Part shown: piece by piece, positions 306 to 12,007 of the stretch
Layout of the letters: each line of letters opens with the position of its first letter
Position numbering within the stretch: position 1 is the first letter of the stretch
Source: a virus
Length of the DNA stretch: 20,382 nucleotides
Reading direction: 5' to 3' (one strand)
IMG/VR virus record: IMGVR_UViG_3300017744_001653
Span: 1-20,382 of that record
Program-made: the position numbers and the translations under genes
The notes under the pieces: generated by a model
The model's input: only the letters and a program-made list of their open reading frames with translations
Databases searched by the model: none
What the model was told of the DNA's origin: nothing

Positions 306-695
306 TTATTTAGTGTCTGACACCTTTTCTTCAGGATTATCTTTTTTGTCATAGTCTCTATAAAACTTCACGATTGATAATGTATCTCTTAAATATCGTT
401 TGATTTCTGCCATATTCATAGACAAGTTTTCATATTCTTTGCTAGTTAAAGAGTAGTATGCAACAGCAGGTGCAGAGCCATTTTCATAATCTACTAGATA
501 ATCTTTCATTAATTCAGGAGTTAATATTACCCAGTCTATATCTGTAAGTGCCACCTCATAGGGGAGAGGAGGATGGTACATTGGAACTGGCTCTGCAATC
601 GTTACTACCTCTACAGGTTTAGTTGTAGGTAGCATAGAACAATTAGCCAAGACTATTAGTATGATTGTGTTGCTTATTAATTTTAAACTATTCAT
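306..695 (-). CDS. Putative o-spanin (Rz1-like outer-membrane lipoprotein)
   Basis: A 129-residue protein from the ATG at 695; an in-frame TTG lies one codon earlier. The N-terminus is a lipoprotein signal: a lysine near the start, a hydrophobic stretch (IILIVL) and then L-A-N-C with the acceptor cysteine at residue 19. Asn just before the cysteine is less usual than Gly, Ala or Ser. A short proline-containing segment (HPPLPY) follows, then a mostly polar domain. The gene starts eight bases before the end of the coiled-coil membrane protein upstream, the arrangement of Rz/Rz1 spanin pairs, in which inner- and outer-membrane subunits together disrupt the outer membrane at lysis. It is longer than classical Rz1. 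The spanin call rests on context and topology rather than sequence identity. Confidence 0.65.
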   Translation of the reverse strand: MNSLKLISNTIILIVLANCSMLPTTKPVEVVTIAEPVPMYHPPLPYEVALTDIDWVILTPELMKDYLVDYENGSAPAVAYYSLTSKEYENLSMNMAEIKRYLRDTLSIVKFYRDYDKKDNPEEKVSDTK

Positions 696-1077
696 CAAAC
701 TGATTTGGGTCTGTTAAGGCTATTATTTCTTCTTTGACTTTTTTTGTACCCTTGTTCACAATGTTTTCTATTAACTTAGGTTTCTTCAATGCTAAATTAT
801 CTAAATCATGTTTTGCAAAGGTTGTTCTTAATTTGTTTACTTCTTTTACTGCTTCCTGTTTTTCTTTTTCTATTGCTTGTATTTGCTTTTGTGCCTGTTC
901 CTGATTCGCAAGGTAAGTTTTTATAGATGCATTTTGTTCTGCTATAGATTTTTCTAAGGCTATTTGATTGCCTTTGAGTGTTGATATGTTGTCTTGAAGT
1001 CTATCAATATACCAAGCACTACCTGATATTGAGACTAACAATAAACCACCTAGTATTATTGATAACTTGAATCCCAT
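688..1077 (-). CDS. Putative i-spanin (Rz-like inner-membrane coiled-coil protein)
   Basis: A 129-residue protein with an N-terminal transmembrane helix (residues about 4-23, LSIILGGLLLVSISGSAWY) and almost no cytoplasmic part. A long, charged coiled coil follows (about 25-95, rich in Glu, Lys and Gln). A conserved-looking C-terminal segment comes next, containing FAKHDLDNLALKKPKLIENI. Similar F-x-x-HDL...KP.LIE segments occur, as I recall, in Rz-like proteins of many marine phages. The topology is that of an i-spanin, anchored in the inner membrane with a periplasmic coil that binds the o-spanin. The downstream lipoprotein gene overlaps its 3' end by eight bases, supporting a spanin pair. 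No strong Shine-Dalgarno is seen before the ATG, so coupling to the cyclase gene ending 20 bases upstream is possible. Confidence 0.7.
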   Translation of the reverse strand: MGFKLSIILGGLLLVSISGSAWYIDRLQDNISTLKGNQIALEKSIAEQNASIKTYLANQEQAQKQIQAIEKEKQEAVKEVNKLRTTFAKHDLDNLALKKPKLIENIVNKGTKKVKEEIIALTDPNQFDE

Positions 1078-1097: not shown

Positions 1098-2915
1098 TTA
1101 CCTTTTATACAATTTTCTGATTTCTTCTTTTATAAAAGGAGCATATATTACTACAGGTTCTTCTTTACCTTTTACCTTAATTTCATCAATACGCTGACAA
1201 GCTGTGTTTGCTTCATTGTAAGTATATTCAGATATAAGTATTGGCGTGTCATAGGTTCTTGTTTGTACTTCTAATCTAGCACCAAGATTTACAGCATCTC
1301 CAACAACTGAATAATCAAACCTGAGTTCAGAACCCATATTACCTACAATACAAGTTCCTGTGTTTACCCCAGTTCCTATAACGACTGGTGGTAAATCATA
1401 ACCATCTTCTTTTAGTTGTAAATTAAGCTGTTCTGTAAGTAATTCTATTTCTATAGCAGTTTTTACACCCATTTCAGCATGATTATTACAAGGCAAGGGT
1501 GCGTTCCAAAAAGCCATAATACAATCGCCCATATACTTATCAATAGTTCCACCATTTTTAAGAATTACCTTAGTCATGCGATCTAAAAACAAATTAATCA
1601 ATTCTACTAAGCCTTCAGGGTCATCATTTTTCATGTAGGCTTCTGATATAGGCGTAAAACCTACAATATCTGCAAACATAAACGTCATTTCTTTTCTATC
1701 TCCACCTAACTTCATCAATGAAGGGTCTTTTACAATCATATCTACCATATCAGGCGATATATAAGTACCAAACTGTCCTTTTATTTGTTCTCTTAGCTTC
1801 CATTGTTCTCTAAAGCGTAAATAGAATGCTATTGCTCCAGTAATGAACTGTGCGATTAGTGTCCATGTAACATCTATTAATAAACCCCTGTGGATAAGTG
1901 CATATCCTGTATAAGCTGTTAATAACATCACAAATAAAGCTGTTATAAGTCCATAGGTTATGCCCAAAGCGTTTAATAGAATCCATATAAGGCTTACTGA
2001 GACTACAAATATTAGTATTTCTAAAGCTAATGCCCAATCAGGTATATAAGGACTGTCTTGTATTAAGATTGATTCTGATAGAGCTGCTTGTATCTTATGT
2101 GGTTCTAATAATCCTACAGGAGTAGCTATTTGTGGCATCACACCATTAGCAGTAACGCCAACAAAAACAAACTTTCCTGCAACATTCATTTCTTTTAAGT
2201 CTGTTTGAGGTGTATCTACCCAACTTATCCACTTACGCCCTAAACTATCTGTTTTAACTGGTGGTATTCCTCTAATTGATATTTCTTCTATACCATTATC
2301 ATTAGTTTTTATAATGTAAGTTTTTACACCAAACAATGCTTTATAGATTTGTGTTCCAAAAGCAGGAATCCAGTCGTTATCAGGTGTGCTTACAAGTAAT
2401 GGGATTCTGCGAACAAGTTGGTCAACTTCGGTGGGAGCAATGGCTAGACCCTGCAGTGTATTATCTTTTAGAGTGTTCAGGTTTTCCTTAACTCCCATAG
2501 AGACTATAGCACGAACATCATTACCTTTGACAACAGTTCCTGCAGGTTTTGGATAATTTCCACTATTATCTTCAAACATAGCTAAAACAGATGGTGCATA
2601 ACCTAATGTTGTAGCAAAAACTTCATCACCACCCATTCTGTCTGCTTGTGGAAAAGATATAACCCAACCTACTCCAATTGCACCTTCATTGATAAGGTCA
2701 ACTTGTATTTGAGCTAGTGTTCTTCTTGGAAATGGATAGCCACCCTGATCTTCTACATCTTCTTCTGTAATATTTAGAATTACAAAGTTACCTGATGGTT
2801 CTTGTTGTTTAACTAACCCATCAAAGGTTCTTAGTTTTAGTATTTCAGTTGGTGTGCTTTGAAATATAAGTGGGAGTGATAATAGTATTACTATCGGAAA
2901 CAGAAATCTTTTCAT
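1098..2915 (-). CDS. CHASE2-domain class III adenylate cyclase, membrane-bound
   Basis: A 605-residue protein from ATG at 2915. An upstream in-frame TTG at 2945 lies inside the terminator and is unlikely to be used. Domain order: an N-terminal membrane helix (about 3-20); an extracytoplasmic CHASE2-like sensor (about 25-290, with the typical FVFVG segment near its end); three transmembrane helices (about 295-316, 318-341, 345-367); a short linker; and a class III cyclase domain (about 405-590). The catalytic set is complete: metal-binding Asp416 (FADIVGF) and Asp464 (MGD), adenine-selecting Lys460 and Asp534 (RFDYSVVGDAVN), ribose-binding Asn543 and transition-state Arg547. This predicts conversion of ATP to cAMP under control of an extracytoplasmic signal. 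A cyclase of this bacterial type between phage tail and lysis genes is very unusual. No clear Shine-Dalgarno or promoter is seen; expression may depend on read-through of the terminator just upstream. Confidence 0.92.
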   Translation of the reverse strand: MKRFLFPIVILLSLPLIFQSTPTEILKLRTFDGLVKQQEPSGNFVILNITEEDVEDQGGYPFPRRTLAQIQVDLINEGAIGVGWVISFPQADRMGGDEVFATTLGYAPSVLAMFEDNSGNYPKPAGTVVKGNDVRAIVSMGVKENLNTLKDNTLQGLAIAPTEVDQLVRRIPLLVSTPDNDWIPAFGTQIYKALFGVKTYIIKTNDNGIEEISIRGIPPVKTDSLGRKWISWVDTPQTDLKEMNVAGKFVFVGVTANGVMPQIATPVGLLEPHKIQAALSESILIQDSPYIPDWALALEILIFVVSVSLIWILLNALGITYGLITALFVMLLTAYTGYALIHRGLLIDVTWTLIAQFITGAIAFYLRFREQWKLREQIKGQFGTYISPDMVDMIVKDPSLMKLGGDRKEMTFMFADIVGFTPISEAYMKNDDPEGLVELINLFLDRMTKVILKNGGTIDKYMGDCIMAFWNAPLPCNNHAEMGVKTAIEIELLTEQLNLQLKEDGYDLPPVVIGTGVNTGTCIVGNMGSELRFDYSVVGDAVNLGARLEVQTRTYDTPILISEYTYNEANTACQRIDEIKVKGKEEPVVIYAPFIKEEIRKLYKR

Positions 2916-2994: not shown

Positions 2995-3354
2995 TTAACT
3001 AATAGTGTTTTCAAAAGTAGCCATAAGACTTCCATCTTGAAAATAAATTTTATGATCTCCATTGTACATAAATCCATTGATATCAAAGTTATTTATAACT
3101 TCTGTATCTCCCCAATTTTCATAAATTTTATTACCATTACGACCATTACCCATTGGCACTAAAAAGTAAGTGACATCATCATGAACTAAAACATCACCTT
3201 CTGATGTACTTCTGTGACCATCATCAGACCATGCTTCGTCTATATTTTGTGTTTTTCTGTATGCATATTGAAAAGACTCTGTATCAATAGTAGCTACAAG
3301 TTTGTAAGGCTTTTCGTTATTTGCGAATTCAGTTGCTTGGTATACTTTTATCAT
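2995..3354 (-). CDS. Hypothetical protein with GHRSTSEGDV motif, moron-like
   Basis: A 119-residue soluble protein without a signal peptide or membrane segment. It begins MIKVYQATEF and has a central motif D-G-H-R-S-T-S-E-G-D-V-L-V (residues about 45-57). An arginine-serine-rich motif followed by GDV recalls small phage and plasmid proteins of the YodL-like type, but I cannot assign a function. An AAGGAA Shine-Dalgarno lies about seven bases before the ATG. The gene is singular in this window in having its own sigma70-like promoter (3401-3429) and its own intrinsic terminator (2932-2955), so it can be expressed independently of the long late transcript. That arrangement is typical of morons, lysogenic-conversion genes or early-expressed inserts. 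Confidence 0.7.
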   Translation of the reverse strand: MIKVYQATEFANNEKPYKLVATIDTESFQYAYRKTQNIDEAWSDDGHRSTSEGDVLVHDDVTYFLVPMGNGRNGNKIYENWGDTEVINNFDINGFMYNGDHKIYFQDGSLMATFENTIS

Positions 3355-3457: not shown

Positions 3458-4576
3458 TTATTCGCTTTGCGTAATAGTTATCACAGAGTCTCCACCACCA
3501 TTTATCTTAACAACATTAGAAACACCATCTTGGATGATAATTAAAGTATAAGCATCATTGCCATCAAGGTCTAATCTCACAGAATCATTTACACTTCTTC
3601 TTATACTAATCACATCACCAGCTATTAAGGTTGTTATTTGTGTTTCTGTATCTTGACCTATTCTTGTACCTTTAATATCTATACCACCTGTATCAGCTAA
3701 AACGTCTTCATCTTTACTAATAGCTAATGAGTCTAATACATTTAGCAAATCTTCAAGAAAGTTTGTATCAAGGTAGTTAATATCTAATTCTGTAAACTCT
3801 AACTCATCTTCTCCAAGAAAGTCCTCATCAAGATAATCTATGTCTAGGTCATTAAAATCTAAAATGTTTTCTTTTGAGTTTTGTGAAACTTCTTCTGTGA
3901 TATCTATTTCTTTTTTTGGTGGTGTGACAATTAACATATTATCAATAATGTCTAATGTTAAATCTAATATGACTGGTTTACTTGGTTTAGATTCAAAAAC
4001 ACTTACTGTAGTTGCTTGATAAGGTTTATTTAATAAAACAGTACCCATAGCAGTAACAACTTCTATTTCACCACTAGACAAGCCTAGAGCATCAGGCAAA
4101 AGTATTATTAGTGATCTCCCCAACTCATCAACTGTAGCTGTAAAATCTGTTCCACGAATAGCAATATTTGCTGTTGGTGTCTTTAGCTTTATGTTTTGTT
4201 TATCTATTCTGTTTAAATTGCCTGTGATAAATCTTGCTGTTCCTAAACCAAATGTAAGAGCCATCTTTGATTTAGATGGGTCAGGGTCATAGATGTATTC
4301 ATCTATTAACAGTTGTGAATGTTCTGTAAGTTTTACAACAGAATCATCAAGAAATGTAATAGCCATTCTGCCATTAGATGTAATAGCTTCATCATTGCTT
4401 TGTATAGCAAATTCTAGGGTAGCATCTAGTGGCTTGTCTCTTACTATTTTTGCTGAACCATTAAGTTCAGATATCCCACCAATATCAGCAGCTAGTGCTT
4501 GTTCCTTGATCGTTTTGGATAATACAAACAGTGGAAGCAGCATTCCCACCAATACTAATAACTTTAAGCCAGTCAT
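3458..4576 (-). CDS. Secreted FecR-domain protein with acidic repeats and curlin-like C-terminus
   Basis: A 372-residue protein. Residues 1-30 look like a signal peptide (MTGLKLLVLVGMLLPLFVLS, then an alanine-containing cleavage region). Residues about 42-150 match a FecR domain (PF04773): I-V-R-D near 44, the 'SNGRMAITFLDDS' strand (67-79), a Y-x-Y-D-P segment, and the signature TPTANIAIRGTDF (133-145). An acidic region (about 236-280) contains two copies of LDI(D/N)YLDxxFL. The last 30 residues (IIIQDGVSNVV, then ITITQSE at the end) have the alternating Ile/Val, Q-x-G-x-x-N and terminal Q pattern of curlin repeats. The gene starts 92 bases inside the upstream curlin-like gene. FecR proteins act in the periplasm as sensors or binding partners; here a link to curli assembly or to the CHASE2 cyclase downstream is plausible but inferred. 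No Shine-Dalgarno is evident at the chosen ATG. Confidence 0.85.
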   Translation of the reverse strand: MTGLKLLVLVGMLLPLFVLSKTIKEQALAADIGGISELNGSAKIVRDKPLDATLEFAIQSNDEAITSNGRMAITFLDDSVVKLTEHSQLLIDEYIYDPDPSKSKMALTFGLGTARFITGNLNRIDKQNIKLKTPTANIAIRGTDFTATVDELGRSLIILLPDALGLSSGEIEVVTAMGTVLLNKPYQATTVSVFESKPSKPVILDLTLDIIDNMLIVTPPKKEIDITEEVSQNSKENILDFNDLDIDYLDEDFLGEDELEFTELDINYLDTNFLEDLLNVLDSLAISKDEDVLADTGGIDIKGTRIGQDTETQITTLIAGDVISIRRSVNDSVRLDLDGNDAYTLIIIQDGVSNVVKINGGGDSVITITQSE

Positions 4577-5216
4577 TGTCTTGTGTACTCAGTTGTTGAA
4601 TATTAAAAGTTCTTTGTCCACCTGTATGATCTAACCAAAAGTAACCTCCTGCTGAAGAAGTAACACCTGTACCTGTATAGTTTACTGTATTATCACTTCC
4701 GTCAATATCCATGTAGTTTGTTGCACCATCAATATTTATGTTAGATGTAATAGTGTTATTAGAACCTTGTATTATCCAGTCTAAATCTAGTGTAGCTGCT
4801 AATGCAGTAGTTCCTTGATTTAAAGTAAATGTATTACTAGAGCCTGTAACAGCTATGTTCTGATTTGAACTGTCAGCACCAAAAGTATTACTTGGGTCAA
4901 CTTGTATAGTAAAGACATTACTATTACCAGTGAAGTTGTATAAAGCAGTGAAGCTATCTGCCCATATATCACCTAGAAACTTGTTAGTGTTTCCAATCAT
5001 GTTAATGTCAATAGTCATGGTTGTGCCATCAATATCAAAAGGTGTAAGACTACCAGCAGTAGAATTAAGACCACCTATGATATTAGATATACCAAGTTGC
5101 TCTATATCAAGATTTAATGTTGTACCACTTTGGTCTAAATATATTTCGTTATCAGCCGCGAATATTGGCAATGCAATCAGCATCACACTCAGGCTTATTA
5201 ATTTTAGTTTCTTCAT
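4485..5216 (-). CDS. Curlin-like secreted protein (candidate CsgA/CsgB-type fibre subunit)
   Basis: From ATG at 5216 the protein has 243 residues. It opens with a classical Sec signal peptide (MKKLKLISLSVMLIALPIFA, cleavage predicted after FAA near residue 21). The rest is low-complexity, rich in Asn, Gly, Ser, Thr and Ile, with many G-x-x-N turns (GTTLN, GISN, GNTN, GNSN, GSSN, GSNN, GATN, GSDN) and Q-x-G units such as IYLDQSG and FTLNQG. Stacked strand-turn repeats with Gln and Asn in register are what curlin subunits show. The spacing is less regular than in CsgA, so a CsgB-like or divergent subunit is likely. The GGAG before 5216 supports this start over one ten codons upstream. It directly follows the CsgG gene, overlapping it by 65 bases, so it is the natural candidate cargo for the pore. 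Two Cys residues near the C-terminus are unusual for curlins. Confidence 0.68.
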   Translation of the reverse strand: MKKLKLISLSVMLIALPIFAADNEIYLDQSGTTLNLDIEQLGISNIIGGLNSTAGSLTPFDIDGTTMTIDINMIGNTNKFLGDIWADSFTALYNFTGNSNVFTIQVDPSNTFGADSSNQNIAVTGSSNTFTLNQGTTALAATLDLDWIIQGSNNTITSNINIDGATNYMDIDGSDNTVNYTGTGVTSSAGGYFWLDHTGGQRTFNIQQLSTQDNDWLKVISIGGNAASTVCIIQNDQGTSTSC

Positions 5217-6021
5217 GTTTCCAAAAACTCCTGTCGTAACCGACATTAATTAATTCTAAAACTGCACCCTCAATGGCTTTCATCAAGGCTATAGTTGTAG
5301 ACTCATTGCGAGAATTTCCTAATTCAATTTCAACAAGTTCTGTACCCATTTCTATGAATCTAAAAACATCTTCTGACTTACCATAACTAAATATGGTTTT
5401 TTGGCTTAATACTTCTATAAGTATTTCACCAGTTGCAACTGATACCATGCGAAGGGAAACAGTAATATTATCTTCTCTGTATTGAATACTAGTTCCTATT
5501 CCTAAATACCTAGCACCAACGCCACCAGTTGACAAGTTACTATCATAACTTATTACAGCACCTTCTAACAAGACACCTGCAAATAGCAGTGGTGGTACAT
5601 TCTTATCTTCACCTTCTTTTGCAAATTGTTCTCTTGCAGACCTTATCAACTGTCTTTCTTTAGTTAGATTATCTAAACCCACCCTTTCTACCACCCTAAA
5701 GAACTCACCATTACTTGCATGTTTTAATGCTCTAATTAATAAAGTGTGTGGTGCTTGGGTTACAGCAGTAGAAAACAAAGCAAACTCACTGTTGCTTTTA
5801 CGCTGTCCTGTTTGATCTGTAAACGCTGAAGGGTAAACTGCTACAACAGGTAGCACTGAAGGTTTTTTTACATTAGCAAGTTCTTCTGAATTTAACTCTG
5901 CAATATTTACTATATCCTTAGACTTGTATCTAAGTTCTACAGTATCTTCAAACTGGTTAAAAATTGAACAACTAGAAAGTAAAAGAACCGATAGGTATTG
6001 TAATTTCTGTAACTGTGCCAT
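5152..6021 (-). CDS. csgG: CsgG-like outer-membrane curli secretion channel (lipoprotein)
   Basis: A 289-residue lipoprotein with lipobox L-S-S-C (Cys18). The mature region aligns with E. coli CsgG from memory over nearly its full length: D-x-T-G-Q-x-K (69-75), FSTAV (83-87), ALK (98-100), ERVGLDNL (112-119), ERQLIRSA (122-129), the hallmark SNLSTGGVGARYLGIG (161-176), ATGEIL (196-201), VFRFIE (219-224), IALMKAIE (244-251) and LINVGYDRSFW (257-267). CsgG forms a nonameric pore in the outer membrane that exports unfolded curli subunits. The eyelet loop differs from E. coli: Phe56 is kept (F83), but Asn55 is Leu, and the Tyr51 area is changed with an extra residue. The length is similar to bacterial CsgG, and there is a short cysteine-containing C-terminal tail. 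It overlaps the CsgF-like gene upstream by 50 bases and the curlin-like gene downstream by 65. Confidence 0.96.
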   Translation of the reverse strand: MAQLQKLQYLSVLLLSSCSIFNQFEDTVELRYKSKDIVNIAELNSEELANVKKPSVLPVVAVYPSAFTDQTGQRKSNSEFALFSTAVTQAPHTLLIRALKHASNGEFFRVVERVGLDNLTKERQLIRSAREQFAKEGEDKNVPPLLFAGVLLEGAVISYDSNLSTGGVGARYLGIGTSIQYREDNITVSLRMVSVATGEILIEVLSQKTIFSYGKSEDVFRFIEMGTELVEIELGNSRNESTTIALMKAIEGAVLELINVGYDRSFWKHEETKINKPECDADCIANIRG

Positions 6022-6514
6022 CTGCTTCGGTTATTTTTAAAGTTAAATATGTTCCATCAGATGAATACTCTATAGTATTTCCTTCTAAGGATATAGTTCC
6101 ACTTGACTGTGGTGTTTCACCAAATAAATTAGCGATTAGCTGTCTGCTAAGTTCTGCATATACTCTACTTTCAAAATTTCTAATAAATCTTTGCACTGTA
6201 GAATTTTCTTTATCTCTTTCTGCTTCTTCTTTAGCAGCTTTAATCTCATCTTTTATTTTTTGTTTTCTATTAAATTCTTGGTTTTCAATGGTCAGATAAT
6301 GACTAGATGTATTAATCCCACTAAAACTAGGTGACTTAAACTTATGAACTATTTGGTCTGCTTTAAGATTTTGTACAAATATGCCTATAATTAAAGCCAA
6401 TCCAAAAGCCACTACAAACCATGTTATTCTAGTTTTTTCTAGTTCATCTTTCCTACGCTTTAGTTCAGCGTTACTAGGTCTACCTCTTTTCTTCTTAATC
6501 TTTTCTTTGGTCAT
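5972..6514 (-). CDS. csgF: CsgF-like curli assembly factor with basic, membrane-anchored N-terminus
   Basis: From ATG at 6514 the protein has 180 residues; an in-frame TTG six codons upstream is less likely. Residues 54-180 resemble CsgF. The segment HKFKSPSFSG (57-66) matches the N-terminal F-x-N-P-x-F-x-G motif with which CsgF binds inside the CsgG pore. The C-terminal part (LTLKITEADGTVTEITIPI) matches the CsgF strand pattern of a ligand-like domain ending in T-x-I-x-V. In CsgF the signal peptide precedes this motif directly. Here a hydrophobic helix (32-48) is preceded by about 30 charged residues with KKKRGRPSNAELKRRK, which resembles an AT-hook core. The helix may be an uncleaved anchor or an unusual signal. 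A long charged helical region (about 80-118) replaces the middle of E. coli CsgF. The gene overlaps its upstream neighbour by 20 bases and CsgG by 50. Confidence 0.8.
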   Translation of the reverse strand: MTKEKIKKKRGRPSNAELKRRKDELEKTRITWFVVAFGLALIIGIFVQNLKADQIVHKFKSPSFSGINTSSHYLTIENQEFNRKQKIKDEIKAAKEEAERDKENSTVQRFIRNFESRVYAELSRQLIANLFGETPQSSGTISLEGNTIEYSSDGTYLTLKITEADGTVTEITIPIGSFTF

Positions 6515-6845
6515 CTCTATCTGCCTTAGCAATTTTACTGCTATCTATAAGTTGAGGTACGCCAAGAATAGTTTTAATTAAAGTGTCTTGTCTTATAATT
6601 TCATTGTCTAAACTACGCACCCTATCAATTAATGCTACTAGTATTCCATGTTGTGAGTCAAGTTTTGTGCCTAGTCGTTCTTCTATAGCTGCTATTTGTG
6701 ATTCTACTTTTTCATCAACATTATCAAGTTTAGTTTCCATGCCATCTACAATACGCATAATTAGTTTGTATATAAACCAACCCAAGCCAACAGAAGCTGC
6801 TATTGGAAAACCAACCTCTTGAATTACTTTTATTGCCATATCCAT
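6495..6845 (-). CDS. Holin-like membrane protein with coiled coil
   Basis: A 116-residue protein with one transmembrane helix near the N-terminus (about 11-31, GFPIAASVGLGWFIYKLIM). A long charged coiled-coil region follows (about 34-100, with heptad-like EE, KV and DS spacing). This topology, short periplasmic N-terminus, helix, cytoplasmic coil, is seen in small phage membrane proteins annotated as holins or BhlA/UviB-like proteins, and the opening E-V-G-F-P-I is common among them as I recall. It stands at the junction of the tail-fibre genes and the curli cassette, with its stop overlapping the CsgF-like start. It could be the phage holin, or a membrane protein of the curli cassette. No Shine-Dalgarno is evident; the upstream gene ends two bases before it, suggesting translational coupling. 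Confidence 0.6.
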   Translation of the reverse strand: MDMAIKVIQEVGFPIAASVGLGWFIYKLIMRIVDGMETKLDNVDEKVESQIAAIEERLGTKLDSQHGILVALIDRVRSLDNEIIRQDTLIKTILGVPQLIDSSKIAKADRDDQRKD

Positions 6846-7042: not shown

Positions 7043-7629
7043 TATTTAAAACCTAAAGTAACAGGAGATGATGTCGGACTAGAAAAAACACCTGCTGCTG
7101 TTGAACTATCAGCCATAGTCCAAATTCTAGTGCTTCCTACCTGCTGAAAAGTTAGACTACTTCTTGTACGAGTTGCATTTGGTGTGCCACTTGTATTTGA
7201 CTGATTGTAATAAATATCAACTGTAGTCCACCCTGCGTTTCCTGTAGGTGTTCCAGTTGTATCAGAAATATAAAACTGGGTTGCATTATTATTTACAGCG
7301 TACCATTGCCAACTTGGATTAGTGCTATATAAATCACAAGTTGCATCTGACACAGAGCCAAAAGCTGTAGAGCCAACATTACCATAACCCTGAAATGATT
7401 GACCAAAAATTGTAGTTGCTGCATTAGTGACTGTAACAATCCAATCATAATAAGATGCACCATAAAAGTTAGACATAGATATTGCACCTGAAGATACACC
7501 TGCAAGACTTCTTAAATCTGTTTCACCCATAGATGATGTAGCAGTTGCTGATCTCCCTAATTCAACATTAATTGACCTGTCAGTTGTAGTGCCACCAATG
7601 GACATAGTTCCACTAGATGCTAGAGTCAT
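7042..7629 (-). CDS. Small tail-associated adhesin-like protein
   Basis: A 195-residue protein, rich in Ser, Thr, Gly and Asn and almost free of Lys. The first 60 residues contain the pattern GTMSIGG...INVELGRS...DLRSLAG...GAISMSNFYGAS. As I recall, this pattern (…ISLSDLYG) is common at the N-terminus of phage tail appendage or virion proteins from marine and other environments. The C-terminal part (about 65-195) looks like a beta-rich domain with aromatic residues (W, Y), as expected for a receptor- or glycan-binding module. It starts 17 bases inside the megaprotein gene, so it is translated from the same message. Likely a short fibre, tip or adhesin; the exact role is inference. Confidence 0.65.
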   Translation of the reverse strand: MTLASSGTMSIGGTTTDRSINVELGRSATATSSMGETDLRSLAGVSSGAISMSNFYGASYYDWIVTVTNAATTIFGQSFQGYGNVGSTAFGSVSDATCDLYSTNPSWQWYAVNNNATQFYISDTTGTPTGNAGWTTVDIYYNQSNTSGTPNATRTRSSLTFQQVGSTRIWTMADSSTAAGVFSSPTSSPVTLGFK

Positions 7630-10600
7630 TATCTAACCTAACCTTTAATGCATCTATTTGCTTTTGTTGGTCTTTAACAGTTTCAATTAAATATCCAACT
7701 AAGTTGCCATATGCTACTGACTTAGTACCCATTTCATCATCTGCAGTCATTACAAGTTCAGGTGCTATTTCTTCTATTTCTTGTGCAATAACACCACTAC
7801 TTTTAACACTATCTTTAATAAAGCTAACACCACGCATTTGTAATGCTTTTTTACTGTCTAGTGTTTGTATGTTTGTTTTTAATCTTTTGTCTGAAAAGGC
7901 TGTTACGTTGCCACTACTTGTTATTTCACCTGAAGATATAGTTCCTATGTTGCTCATATTACGAGAACTATCTATAACAGTCGTTCCTGCATTTACAGTT
8001 CCAATTTTTAATGATCTACATATTGGTGCAGCACTTTGTATAACAATTCCATAATCACCACTATCAGAACCATAATAATAAGCTGCACCATCAACTGCTG
8101 ATATAAGATTTTTACCATTATGACCTTTGTAATCTATTGATGCTGTTGTAGAACTTGAACCAAATTCAGTTCCTTTTACTGCACCTGAACTTGTTATTGC
8201 ACCTGATGATATAGTTCCAACTGTAATATTTGGACTACCTGATAACCCTGTTGCAGTAATACCAAGTGCGTTTATTTGTGCTTGTGTTTGGTCTGCTGTA
8301 GCACCACTTTCTATGCCATCTAATTTTGAACCATCTGCTGAAATATCTCTACCATCAACAGTTCCTGTTACTGTCATATTTCCTGATAAAGCTATGCTTG
8401 TTAAACCTGTTAGTGCAGTATCAAGATTAAGAGTGACAGCACCTGACGTGCCACCACCATTAAGGTTAGTACCTGCACCGACTGAAGTAATGTCTCCAGT
8501 TCCACCACCACCGACAGCAGAACCATTAAAGTATAAAGAACCACTTACGTTATATAGTTTGTTAGTTGTAGTGCTTGGTGTTTGTGATGGTAAGGCTAAA
8601 GCATCTGCTGTAACCTCTCCAGTGAAGGTTGCGTTCTGTGATGAGTCAAATGTTAGAGCTAAAGCACCATCTGCATTAATCTTGAATGTGCCACTTGCTC
8701 CACCATCTGCAGATAGGGTTGTGCCACCAACAGCATCATAAACCAAGCCAACAACTTGCGTATTTCCTGAACCTGCCTGTATTCTAAAACCACCACTACC
8801 TGTTGAACTTCTTAGTATTGCATCTGCTTGTGTAGTATCGCTTGATATTCCAGTAACTTTACCAATTATTAAATCAGGTTGAGTTCCTGTAGCTTCAAAA
8901 TTACCAGCTACAACAAAATCTCCATCAATAGCAGCTCCTTCATTAAGAGTTAGTAAACCAATACCACCAACTTCTGAATAAGTTAAAACATCATCTAAAG
9001 GCTCGTTATTTAATGTAATAACACTAGCATCTAAAGTACCTGTAACAGTGGCGTTAGTCACATTTAATGAAGTAGCTGTAACTGAGCCAGTTATTGTGGC
9101 ACTTGTTGCAGTTAATGCTCCACCACTTGTCACAATAAAAGCACCTGAACCTAAATTAATAGATGACGAAGAACCATTAATTGCAATACCTGAATTGTTA
9201 ATAGTTACATCACCACCACTAACAGTCACATTGGCTGCATTTAAAGTACCTGTATCTATATCATTAGCACTTATAGAACCAAAGACACCTGAATCTGAAG
9301 TTATAGTACCTGCTGTGATTCTGTCTGCATCTATACTACGTGCTATTACCTTTGCACCTGCTATCGTGCCATCTACAACTAAATCGCCTGTAGTGAAATT
9401 ACTGATCTCTACAAAAGAACCACCACTTCCTGATGTCCCTGAATATTTATAGGCTTTTGATACTTTTGGACTAGCACTGGTGTTGACCATAATTAAAACA
9501 TCATCATCAAAAGGTAATCTTCCATGTGCTGTGTTGAATGCTGAATCTGAAAGAGCAGTAGTTGTGTTACCCTCTACATGAAAATAACCTGAAAAATTAG
9601 GTATAACAATGTCTGTAGCTTCTACCTTTGTAAAAGAACCAGCAGCCTGACTAGATGCACTAGATACTTTATCAAAAAAAGACACAGCTTTAACTTTAAA
9701 ATAATATGTAGTTGAATCTGAAAGACCATCATCAATACCAAAAGATACCTTTTGTGTAGCACTTGGAACACCTGCTATCGTTCTTACAAGATTAGTACCA
9801 TCATTGGGTGTAAACCCTGAACTTGTAGCTCTATAAATCTTAATATCCCTTAAATCAGTGTTACTTGGATTTACCCAAGACAAACCTATAGATAATGGTT
9901 TACCTGTAGTAGCTGATAAAGAAGTAGGAGCAGATGGTGTTGCTATACCTGTTCCTGAACTAGTATTTATATTAACTTCACTTGTATTAGCACTAAAAAC
10001 ATTATTAGCTGAAAAATGTCTAGCTACTATGTAATAAACTGAATTAGCTTTTACATTAGGTATGATTTCTTTAGTTTTACCTTTACCTGCAATCAATGAA
10101 CCAATGTAAGTACCTGAAGATGTGCCATAAAGTATTTCAGTACCTTGTATTAAATCATCAGGGTTGTTTGTCCACTGAACTTGTAAATCATAACCAGTGT
10201 TAATTAAAGTTGCTGATACTGATAAACCTGTTGGTGCTGTTACGCTAAAACTACCTGTAGAAACGCTTGTGCCTTCGTCTATGGGACTGGTATAACTACT
10301 TGAAGCAAATGCATATACAGAAGAATCAATCTCTTTAAGGGCAAGTCTTGTAGCAAGAACTGGAACATCATCTGATTCTATAACTTCTAAATTTGTGCTT
10401 AAAACTTCAAATGTTTTGTTTGTATAACCCAGTCTTTCGTTTGTAAGGTAAACCCAATCAAATGGTTGTAGTTGCATATAAGCAATATTGCAAAGAACTG
10501 AAAGACTGACTTCTTTTCTAGTATGCAATAAAGCTGTTCTTTGTAACCTTTGTGCCATTGTAGTTGTATCTGTAAATGGCAACTGTATTTCTAAAGATTT

Positions 10601-12007
10601 TCTATAATTTGCTGAAGATTCTCCAGTTGGGGTGTCGTTACTTAAAAAAGTGCTATCTGTGTAAACAGGTGAATCGGTAGCTATATAATTATTATTAGCA
10701 TCTACATATACAGCTTTTACAGTATTAAAAGACTCTCCACTACTTTGTTTTGTAGCTATAGATATCGGTGCTAATAAATTATCGTCTGTGATTGTCATAT
10801 CAGGCGTAACAGAAGCACCTGCAAACATTACAAACTTACCATCTATATAAGATAACTTACCTGCACAAGAACTTAGCAATCCTTCTATGACATCACTACC
10901 ACTAGCAGACATATTTGTTATGCCATTTGCTGTATAGAGTTCTTCTGTGAATGTTAGAGTTACACCATCAGCTATAGTTTGTGCTGATGATAAAGTAATT
11001 ACTAAACCTCTTCTTCTAACAACCTTAACTGTTCCTGATATACCTGTACCTGTGACTGTTTGACCAACATCTATAAGTGTCAATGTTGATGATGTGTCTA
11101 CTGTTACAGTCGTTGAACTTGATATAGCACCATTGACTGTAGCTGTTCCGATGGTGTTACCACTATCACAAGTATTGGCTGCTGATGAAAAACCACCTAA
11201 AGCTGTTGTGTCTAAGACTTCGCTAGATGTCGCTTTTAATCCATAAGTAGTGTCAGTTATATAATCCCTTACACATAGAGCAGGATTATCAGACCATGCA
11301 GTAGATGATGTTCTAGGGTCATAAACTTTCTTACCTTTTACAACAAAAGCCATAGGTGGAATACCACCACCAAATGCTTCAGAATCTACAACCATTTCTA
11401 TCAACATATAAGACATGCCAATAAACTTGTCTGAAGATGTTAAAGATGTGTTATTTACTACAGTTGAATTAGCTGTTGTTTGTGAGCCATCTACAAAAAC
11501 ATATCTAAGCAAAGAACTTTGTACGCCAAATTTATTTTCATTATCAGCATTAACAAATTTACTATTTGTTGCATATTGGAATCCACCACTTGAAACAGTA
11601 GTTAAAATCTCATCATTAATAAGTACATCTTCAAGACCTTCTACTTCATGTCCTGCCAAAACAACTATCATAGATAGCTTGTAGTTATCAGTTCCTGAGG
11701 TTTCTATATGAGTTATTGTTCCACCGACTCTAGCTTTACCATATATTATCTGTCTTGGTGCAGTGGCTGTTCTTGATGCTATTTTATTACCGAAGTTTTC
11801 CGTAGCAGTAGCTTTGATGCCTTTTGACATCAATCCACCGACTAAAGTTGATATAGCTGATAAAGCAGCCATTTCCATTGCTGTTACACCAAATAAAGTG
11901 GCTGCTGCACCACCGACACCTGCTGTTCCGAACACAAAAATTGCACCTGACATAACAGCAAATGTCACTACAAATATTGTTACTGCTGCTTTTACTGCTT
12001 TAGCCAT
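7613..12007 (-). CDS. Tail-tip / central fibre megaprotein with fibronectin III repeats and S74 autoprocessing domain
   Basis: At 1464 residues this is the largest gene in the window. The N-terminus (about 1-60) is hydrophobic, Ala/Gly-rich and resembles lambda-J and GTA-g15-type tail tip proteins. Residues about 60-330 carry the tail-tip region (APRQIIYGKARVGG, DPRTSSTAWSDNPALCVRDY). Two fibronectin type III-like domains follow (about 590-690, starting TAPTGLSVSA; and 695-790, starting SAPTSLSATTG). A long region of Ile/Val-Thr-Gly strands (about 895-1350, e.g. ADRITAGTIT and DGRDISADGSKLDGIESGAT) is typical of triple beta-helix fibres. The C-terminus (1372-1464) is a peptidase S74 intramolecular chaperone with S-D-K-R-L-K at Ser1372, where autoproteolysis is expected after trimerisation, and a final coiled coil. 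It joins baseplate and receptor-binding roles in one chain. A GGAGAG lies before the ATG, which overlaps the DUF6950 gene by eight bases. Confidence 0.9.
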   Translation of the reverse strand: MAKAVKAAVTIFVVTFAVMSGAIFVFGTAGVGGAAATLFGVTAMEMAALSAISTLVGGLMSKGIKATATENFGNKIASRTATAPRQIIYGKARVGGTITHIETSGTDNYKLSMIVVLAGHEVEGLEDVLINDEILTTVSSGGFQYATNSKFVNADNENKFGVQSSLLRYVFVDGSQTTANSTVVNNTSLTSSDKFIGMSYMLIEMVVDSEAFGGGIPPMAFVVKGKKVYDPRTSSTAWSDNPALCVRDYITDTTYGLKATSSEVLDTTALGGFSSAANTCDSGNTIGTATVNGAISSSTTVTVDTSSTLTLIDVGQTVTGTGISGTVKVVRRRGLVITLSSAQTIADGVTLTFTEELYTANGITNMSASGSDVIEGLLSSCAGKLSYIDGKFVMFAGASVTPDMTITDDNLLAPISIATKQSSGESFNTVKAVYVDANNNYIATDSPVYTDSTFLSNDTPTGESSANYRKSLEIQLPFTDTTTMAQRLQRTALLHTRKEVSLSVLCNIAYMQLQPFDWVYLTNERLGYTNKTFEVLSTNLEVIESDDVPVLATRLALKEIDSSVYAFASSSYTSPIDEGTSVSTGSFSVTAPTGLSVSATLINTGYDLQVQWTNNPDDLIQGTEILYGTSSGTYIGSLIAGKGKTKEIIPNVKANSVYYIVARHFSANNVFSANTSEVNINTSSGTGIATPSAPTSLSATTGKPLSIGLSWVNPSNTDLRDIKIYRATSSGFTPNDGTNLVRTIAGVPSATQKVSFGIDDGLSDSTTYYFKVKAVSFFDKVSSASSQAAGSFTKVEATDIVIPNFSGYFHVEGNTTTALSDSAFNTAHGRLPFDDDVLIMVNTSASPKVSKAYKYSGTSGSGGSFVEISNFTTGDLVVDGTIAGAKVIARSIDADRITAGTITSDSGVFGSISANDIDTGTLNAANVTVSGGDVTINNSGIAINGSSSSINLGSGAFIVTSGGALTATSATITGSVTATSLNVTNATVTGTLDASVITLNNEPLDDVLTYSEVGGIGLLTLNEGAAIDGDFVVAGNFEATGTQPDLIIGKVTGISSDTTQADAILRSSTGSGGFRIQAGSGNTQVVGLVYDAVGGTTLSADGGASGTFKINADGALALTFDSSQNATFTGEVTADALALPSQTPSTTTNKLYNVSGSLYFNGSAVGGGGTGDITSVGAGTNLNGGGTSGAVTLNLDTALTGLTSIALSGNMTVTGTVDGRDISADGSKLDGIESGATADQTQAQINALGITATGLSGSPNITVGTISSGAITSSGAVKGTEFGSSSTTASIDYKGHNGKNLISAVDGAAYYYGSDSGDYGIVIQSAAPICRSLKIGTVNAGTTVIDSSRNMSNIGTISSGEITSSGNVTAFSDKRLKTNIQTLDSKKALQMRGVSFIKDSVKSSGVIAQEIEEIAPELVMTADDEMGTKSVAYGNLVGYLIETVKDQQKQIDALKVRLDNDSSI

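Follow-up and report, generated by a model that had tools for sequence, protein, structure and literature searches.

Gene content and setting of the cassette

The subject of this analysis is a curli-type (type VIII secretion) cassette carried by the virus recorded as IMGVR_UViG_3300017744_001653 in IMG/VR. The whole record, 20,382 bases, was analysed and is called the window below; nearly all of its genes lie on the minus strand. The cassette genes, from the upstream end, are as follows.

6495..6845, minus strand: small membrane/coiled-coil protein, 116 aa, cassette-specific
5972..6514, minus strand: pore-associated CsgF, 180 aa from the ATG at 6514 (PF10614, E=8.5e-17, 62 bits against a cut-off of 25.8)
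5152..6021, minus strand: CsgG outer-membrane pore lipoprotein, 289 aa (PF03783, E=1.6e-47)
4485..5216, minus strand: curlin-like cargo, 243 aa from the conserved ATG, with a signal peptide, G-x-x-N repeats and a conserved C-terminal Cys pair
3458..4576, minus strand: periplasmic FecR-domain protein, 372 aa (PF04773, E=2.8e-9), with a signal peptide, an acidic linker and a curlin-like C-terminal beta-solenoid
1098..2915, minus strand: CHASE2-domain adenylate/guanylate cyclase (PF05226, E=2.7e-23; PF00211, E=9e-17)

The first-pass annotation of this DNA had placed a cassette of CsgF, CsgG, a curlin-like protein and FecR, consecutive and overlapping, at 3458-6514. Its identification of CsgF, CsgG and FecR is borne out by the matches to PF10614, PF03783 and PF04773, which, like those of the CHASE2 and cyclase domains, exceed the Pfam cut-offs, and these four genes do overlap, by 50 to 92 bases; taken from the coordinates, the overlaps between cassette genes are 20, 50, 65 and 92 nt. 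The core genes stand as first read. The extent does not: a small gene upstream (6495-6845) and the cyclase downstream (1098-2915) are further members.

CsgG matches the E. coli CsgG structures 4uv2, 4uv3 and 3x2r over residues 47-270 (E=2.8e-43). It has the lipobox LLSSC, and C18 is invariant in alignment A1. CsgF has a long basic n-region followed by a signal sequence and the CsgF domain, and a further open upstream TTG is present at 6532; phmmer matched CsgF to no solved structure. A basic stretch before the signal sequence is found in many siphophage and podophage copies of CsgF (window 5972-6532; contigs L016, L019 and L333) and is missing from others. The stretch holds an AT-hook-like motif, KRGRPS (Pfam AT_hook, E=0.09). 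A 1.5-kb record titled Salmonella phage S.Kent 1-2-1 (OR851715.1) gives a 41% match to the window CsgG and may be mislabelled host DNA.

Three observations lead us to assign the small gene to the cassette: among 50,697 phage records it occurs exclusively in curli-bearing phages; it is adjoined by Csg genes in 78 of 79 IMG/VR loci, the remaining locus ending 405 bases downstream; and in 10 myophage loci it is placed between CsgF and CsgG. Among 190 alphaproteobacterial genomes it was found in one, on two phage-like contigs. A gene labelled HK has been described that “always” precedes CsgF and of which there are “sometimes two” (PMC9599517), and the position and size of the small gene indicate that it is probably this HK. 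No kinase, neither HisKA nor HATPase, is among the 25 Pfam families listed for 30 small-gene members (87-122 aa). A holin reading of the small gene was rejected, as the only match is a weak one to phrog_1296 (E=0.003) and the gene is found only with curli genes. Near the cassette of some podophages lies a 159-aa protein (L061:10408-10887, L315:6677-7156) that matches GTA_holin_3TM weakly and in L061 only (E=0.006); this may be their real holin.

The surroundings are those of a siphophage. From the upstream end, head-tail connectors are followed by a tail terminator, a major tail protein, a tape measure, a distal tail protein, an NlpC-like gene and a J-like fibre, the tail genes standing in the order that marks a siphophage. 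Next come a 195-aa gene, a 64-aa gene, the 116-aa membrane/coiled-coil gene, CsgF, CsgG, the curlin-like gene and FecR. Downstream of FecR are a 119-aa gene, the CHASE2-cyclase, Rz, Rz1, a 54-aa gene and the start of a staphylococcal-nuclease gene. The first-pass placement of the cassette between tail-tip and spanin/nuclease genes, as phage DNA, is confirmed by these flanks, and bacterial flanking DNA is rejected. The neighbouring features are listed here.

7613..12007, minus strand: J-like central tail fibre with an S74-type C-terminus (phrog_5616, E=3.8e-58; phrog_31, E=2.2e-32), the siphophage flank
2995..3354, minus strand: 119-aa protein between FecR and the cyclase, optional
688..1077, minus strand: Rz-like inner-membrane spanin (phrog_739, E=2.3e-13), outside the cassette
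306..698, minus strand: Rz1-like outer-membrane spanin (phrog_812, E=1.6e-12), outside the cassette

The first 80 loci gave a single close homologue for the 119-aa protein (L007/L204, 90%). A related contig, L016, has an identical gene order and continues into a GH24 lysozyme. Between the 119-aa gene and the cyclase, at 2938-2955, both strands have a terminator-like hairpin, which may mark off the cyclase. An Rfam search gave no match, and hence no riboswitch of the Melnitz type.

Distribution and exchange of the cassette

When viral contigs were scanned, 478 relatives of CsgG were found, and gene order was examined in the best 80 of the 478. In these the order small gene-CsgF-CsgG-curlin-FecR-cyclase is retained as far as the sequence extends; among all the loci fetched it is retained in 221, and the 10 myophage exceptions differ only in the placement of the small gene. 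Assembly chimerism, a worry raised at the outset, is rejected, since the same junctions and the same tail-cassette-lysis order recur in independent contigs.

A second scan, with the NlpC-like gene, yielded a small sample of 73 contigs with the siphophage backbone of the window. Cassette genes are present in all 18 of the 18 contigs that extend past the tail fibre. The other 55 stop short: 51 end in an open tail-fibre frame or at most 1.5 kb from the NlpC-like gene, and the ends of the other 4 lie no more than 0.3 kb from the last tail frame. No siphophage of this group without the cassette was found among the 73 contigs, though unsampled relatives may lack it.

The window and the siphophage contig L165 are 92-98% identical in J, NlpC, DUF2163, the distal tail gene, the small gene and the start of the cyclase, whereas nucleotide identity falls to 73-77% in CsgF-CsgG-FecR and only 36% of the curlin gene is alignable. 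The reverse holds for the podophage contig L025, in which CsgF, CsgG, curlin and FecR are 80-86% identical in nucleotides to those of the window, with almost no other DNA in common. The CsgG and FecR tree requires four or more supported changes of backbone between siphophages and podophages, with the myophages forming one clade. From this contrast and the tree we infer that CsgF-CsgG-curlin-FecR is the unit of exchange, and the long gene overlaps are consistent with this. As judged from these comparisons, the block is one that moves between unrelated siphophages and podophages.

The putative host of the window phage is likely SAR11. HTVC023P-type podophages infect SAR11 (PMC9599517), and the recent DNA held in common with them implies common or overlapping hosts. 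The best cultured match of the tape measure is Pelagibacter phage HTVC202P, and a related contig is placed in a Pelagibacter metagenome-assembled genome (MAG). CsgG was found in 2 of 197 Pelagibacter-family genomes, in both cases on phage-like contigs with the same cassette. The link between SAR11 phages and CsgG/CsgF homologues, which the first-pass annotation had mentioned, is indeed published (PMC9599517). Curli-bearing phage contigs (L314, L315, L316, L317, L333 and L337) have been binned in MAGs of Maricaulis, Neomarinimicrobiota, Flavobacteriaceae and Pelagibacter. The GC content of phage contig L333, 43%, is above that of the other cassette contigs and hints at a host other than SAR11. 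In the scan of bacterial genomes most matches are phage contigs inside MAGs, and MAG surveys of bacterial curli genes could be misled by such binned contigs.

Cargo, FecR and the purpose of the proposed export

The N-terminal repeat region NEIYLDQ-SGTT-LNLDIEQ-LGIS is common to all 16 aligned cargo sequences, and at the start of the alignment the N, Q and G positions of the curlin repeat are invariant. PF07012 (Curlin_rpt) is matched by 6 of these 16, at best with 8.6e-6. The window cargo has 8 G-x-x-N motifs, against 2.8 in shuffles, and its N-x-Psi-x-Psi-x-Q motifs number two by the strict definition (shuffle fraction 0.059) and four by the relaxed one (0.006). The AlphaFold model is all-beta, with 17 strands in one continuous beta-solenoid (predicted local distance difference test, pLDDT, 84). 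A second structure aligner aligns residues 24-238 with several beta-solenoids at Z 13-17, a likeness of architecture only; Foldseek gave no match below 1e-3, and a profile search against solved structures gave no significant match. Curlins are beta-solenoids and include a class with degenerate repeats, and the N-x-Psi-x-Psi-x-Q repeat definition is from the same study (PMC10192328). The cargo fits at best this degenerate class, and the fold is also common to many non-amyloid proteins. The 92-nt overlap of the cargo 3′ end with the start of FecR (4485-4576) encodes the conserved C-terminal Cys pair (VCIIQNDQGTSTSC), which is absent from myophage copies.

Residues 1-24 of the FecR protein are a signal-type hydrophobic segment, and directly after them comes the FecR fold. 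The fold matches PupR (6ovk; Z 14.9, 135 residues, root-mean-square deviation 2.4). In the model the acidic linker is of low confidence and the C-terminal part is seven-stranded. The curlin-like tail that the first-pass annotation had ascribed to FecR is upheld by the last strand, Psi-x-Psi-x-Q, which none of the 184 homologues lacks. No cytoplasmic anti-sigma part was found N-terminal to a transmembrane helix in this protein, so its reading as an iron-citrate regulator is unsupported. In the cyclase, the metal residues D426 and D474, the purine residue K470 and the transition-state residue R557 are invariant in 109 of 109 sequences, and the asparagine is present in 108 of 109. Since the podophage contig L314 has FecR and no cyclase, FecR must also act without the cyclase.

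Pairwise ratios of non-synonymous to synonymous substitution (dN/dS) against close relatives are 0.095 for curlin, 0.093 for FecR and 0.115 for CsgG, and 0.17, 0.19 and 0.30 for the small gene, CsgF and the cyclase, respectively; these values are rough, given the high synonymous divergence (0.75-1.1) and the constraint that gene overlaps place on some sites. With dN/dS about 0.1, the cargo is strongly held by purifying selection and is plainly no relic; this speaks for export of a fibre and against a pore alone, serving lysis or uptake.

Our preferred interpretation, which we think probable, is that the genes form a type VIII secretion cassette, mobile and adapted to phages, through which a fibre would reach the outside of the infected cell. 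The export system proposed in the first-pass annotation, with cargo following the pore, agrees with a signal-peptide, curlin-type protein encoded directly after CsgG. The cassette would be expressed late in infection; Sec would export curlin to the periplasm, and CsgG-CsgF would pass it to the infected-cell surface. The FecR tail would dock on or seed the fibre by strand stacking, as a CsgB-like anchor, and FecR may also signal assembly, via CHASE2, to the cyclase. The fibre would coat or tether infected cells, siblings and debris, with more local host encounter, or hindrance of rival phages, as the outcome. Gluing of cells or debris, as suggested in the first-pass annotation, may occur.

It has been proposed for Melnitz that the CsgG-CsgF outer-membrane pore aids depolarisation or release and so times lysis, the curlin being a leftover (PMC9004378). 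The podophage and siphophage cassettes do lie directly upstream of Rz/Rz1, with a GH24 lysozyme further on. Nevertheless, we regard a lysis-timing pore as improbable, and the first-pass suggestion of an outer-membrane pore for lysis is accordingly disfavoured: the constraint on the cargo is at least equal to that on the pore, a full ordinary set of lysis genes with spanins and lysozyme is already there, and the cassettes of HTVC008M and Melnitz adjoin tape measure and baseplate genes. Moreover, CsgG is an outer-membrane pore and holins act at the inner membrane.

A second suggestion is that an ungated CsgG channel admits nutrients or cofactors, with FecR as a link to iron (PMC7029224, PMC9599517). 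The hosts are oligotrophic and the CsgE plug was not found in the cassette genes scanned, as an uptake pore would have it. This explanation seems to us highly improbable, since it renders the cargo and the FecR tail superfluous although they are the most constrained parts, and since FecR starts with a signal peptide and is without the cytoplasmic anti-sigma part used in iron signalling.

More serious, though still unlikely, is that the secreted solenoid stays monomeric and serves on the surface as an adhesin or shield (for instance against superinfection), with no amyloid fibre. The repeats are degenerate, the C-terminal Cys pair is conserved, and the closest solved folds are adhesin-like or other non-polymerising solenoids; these matched folds, however, are common to beta-solenoids generally. 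Relatives of the cargo are Curlin_rpt positive, and the FecR tail provides a complementary solenoid edge, both of which argue for a polymer.

Several points weigh against fibre export as we propose it. The window cargo itself has no match to Curlin_rpt (PF07012) up to E=1, so that its first naming as curlin-like holds through the 6 of 16 aligned sequences, the repeats and the solenoid model and not through a match of its own; with few canonical repeats besides, polymerisation may fail. No trace of CsgE was seen in any cassette gene scanned. Buchholz et al. observed no clumping with phage Melnitz (PMC9004378). Finally, promoter-like matches in a sigma-70 scan are at chance level, and “late” expression therefore rests on gene order.

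Fibre export, if it takes place, could also be sensed. The Burkholderia BiofilmReg operon encodes a FecR protein beside a CHASE2 sensor and affects biofilm (PMC5192318), and by analogy the phage FecR may pass a signal about curlin to CHASE2. It is tempting to go further and propose that the curlin-like tail of FecR docks on curlin at the pore, that CHASE2 turns docking into cyclic AMP in the dying cell and that the small membrane protein is a new type VIII secretion component; we put this forward as a speculation with the odds against it. If true, the phage would not only make a fibre on the cell surface but also use the signal of its completion to set the timing of late events.

Relation to known curli systems

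The order CsgF-CsgG-CsgA/B-FecR-cyclase has been published for HTVC023P-type podophages and pelagimyophages of SAR11 (PMC9599517; also PMC7029224, PMC9004378). As far as the literature shows, what is new here is carriage by a marine siphophage lineage (18 of 18), exchange of the block, re-assignment of the small gene and a FecR that lacks the anti-sigma part and has a curlin-like tail. Phage-borne curli export, as predicted, spans siphophages, podophages and myophages and is not bound to one or two lineages, and in the siphophage lineage of the window the cassette resembles a standard gene set more than an occasional passenger. Two published labels behind ideas of function, the histidine kinase and the iron-dependent FecR regulator, are corrected. 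The results point to the cargo and not to the pore as the selected part, and these small, compact siphophages make the purpose of viral curli testable.

The HTVC023P-type podophage cassette, CsgF-CsgG-CsgA/B-FecR-(second curlin)-cyclase with one or two short genes ahead (PMC9599517), is much like that of the window, and podophage contigs such as L025 and L027 encode proteins up to about 94% identical to those of the window. The window differs in its siphophage backbone and in having no second curlin after FecR. The “histidine kinase” of the HTVC023P type corresponds in position and size to the short protein without a kinase domain.

The pelagimyophage/methylophage cassettes of HTVC008M and Melnitz (PMC7029224, PMC9004378) have the same gene set, with the small membrane gene in two places each, and their CsgGs are 44% and 37% identical, respectively, to that of the window. 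Unlike the window, cassettes of this kind have a second, longer curlin with canonical repeats, which in HTVC008M is gp018, with 7 strict motifs. Both cassettes belong to a separate clade and adjoin tape measure/baseplate genes, not lysis genes.

Bacterial curli operons likewise keep CsgF, CsgG and curlin together. In contrast to the window, three alphaproteobacterial curli loci have canonical multi-repeat curlins, and FecR, the cyclase and the small gene were undetected near their CsgFG. Burkholderia BiofilmReg (PMC5192318) shares a signal-peptide FecR beside a CHASE2-bearing sensor; the Burkholderia pair consists of a histidine kinase sensor and a FecR with LysM, that of the window of a cyclase sensor and a FecR with the curlin tail.

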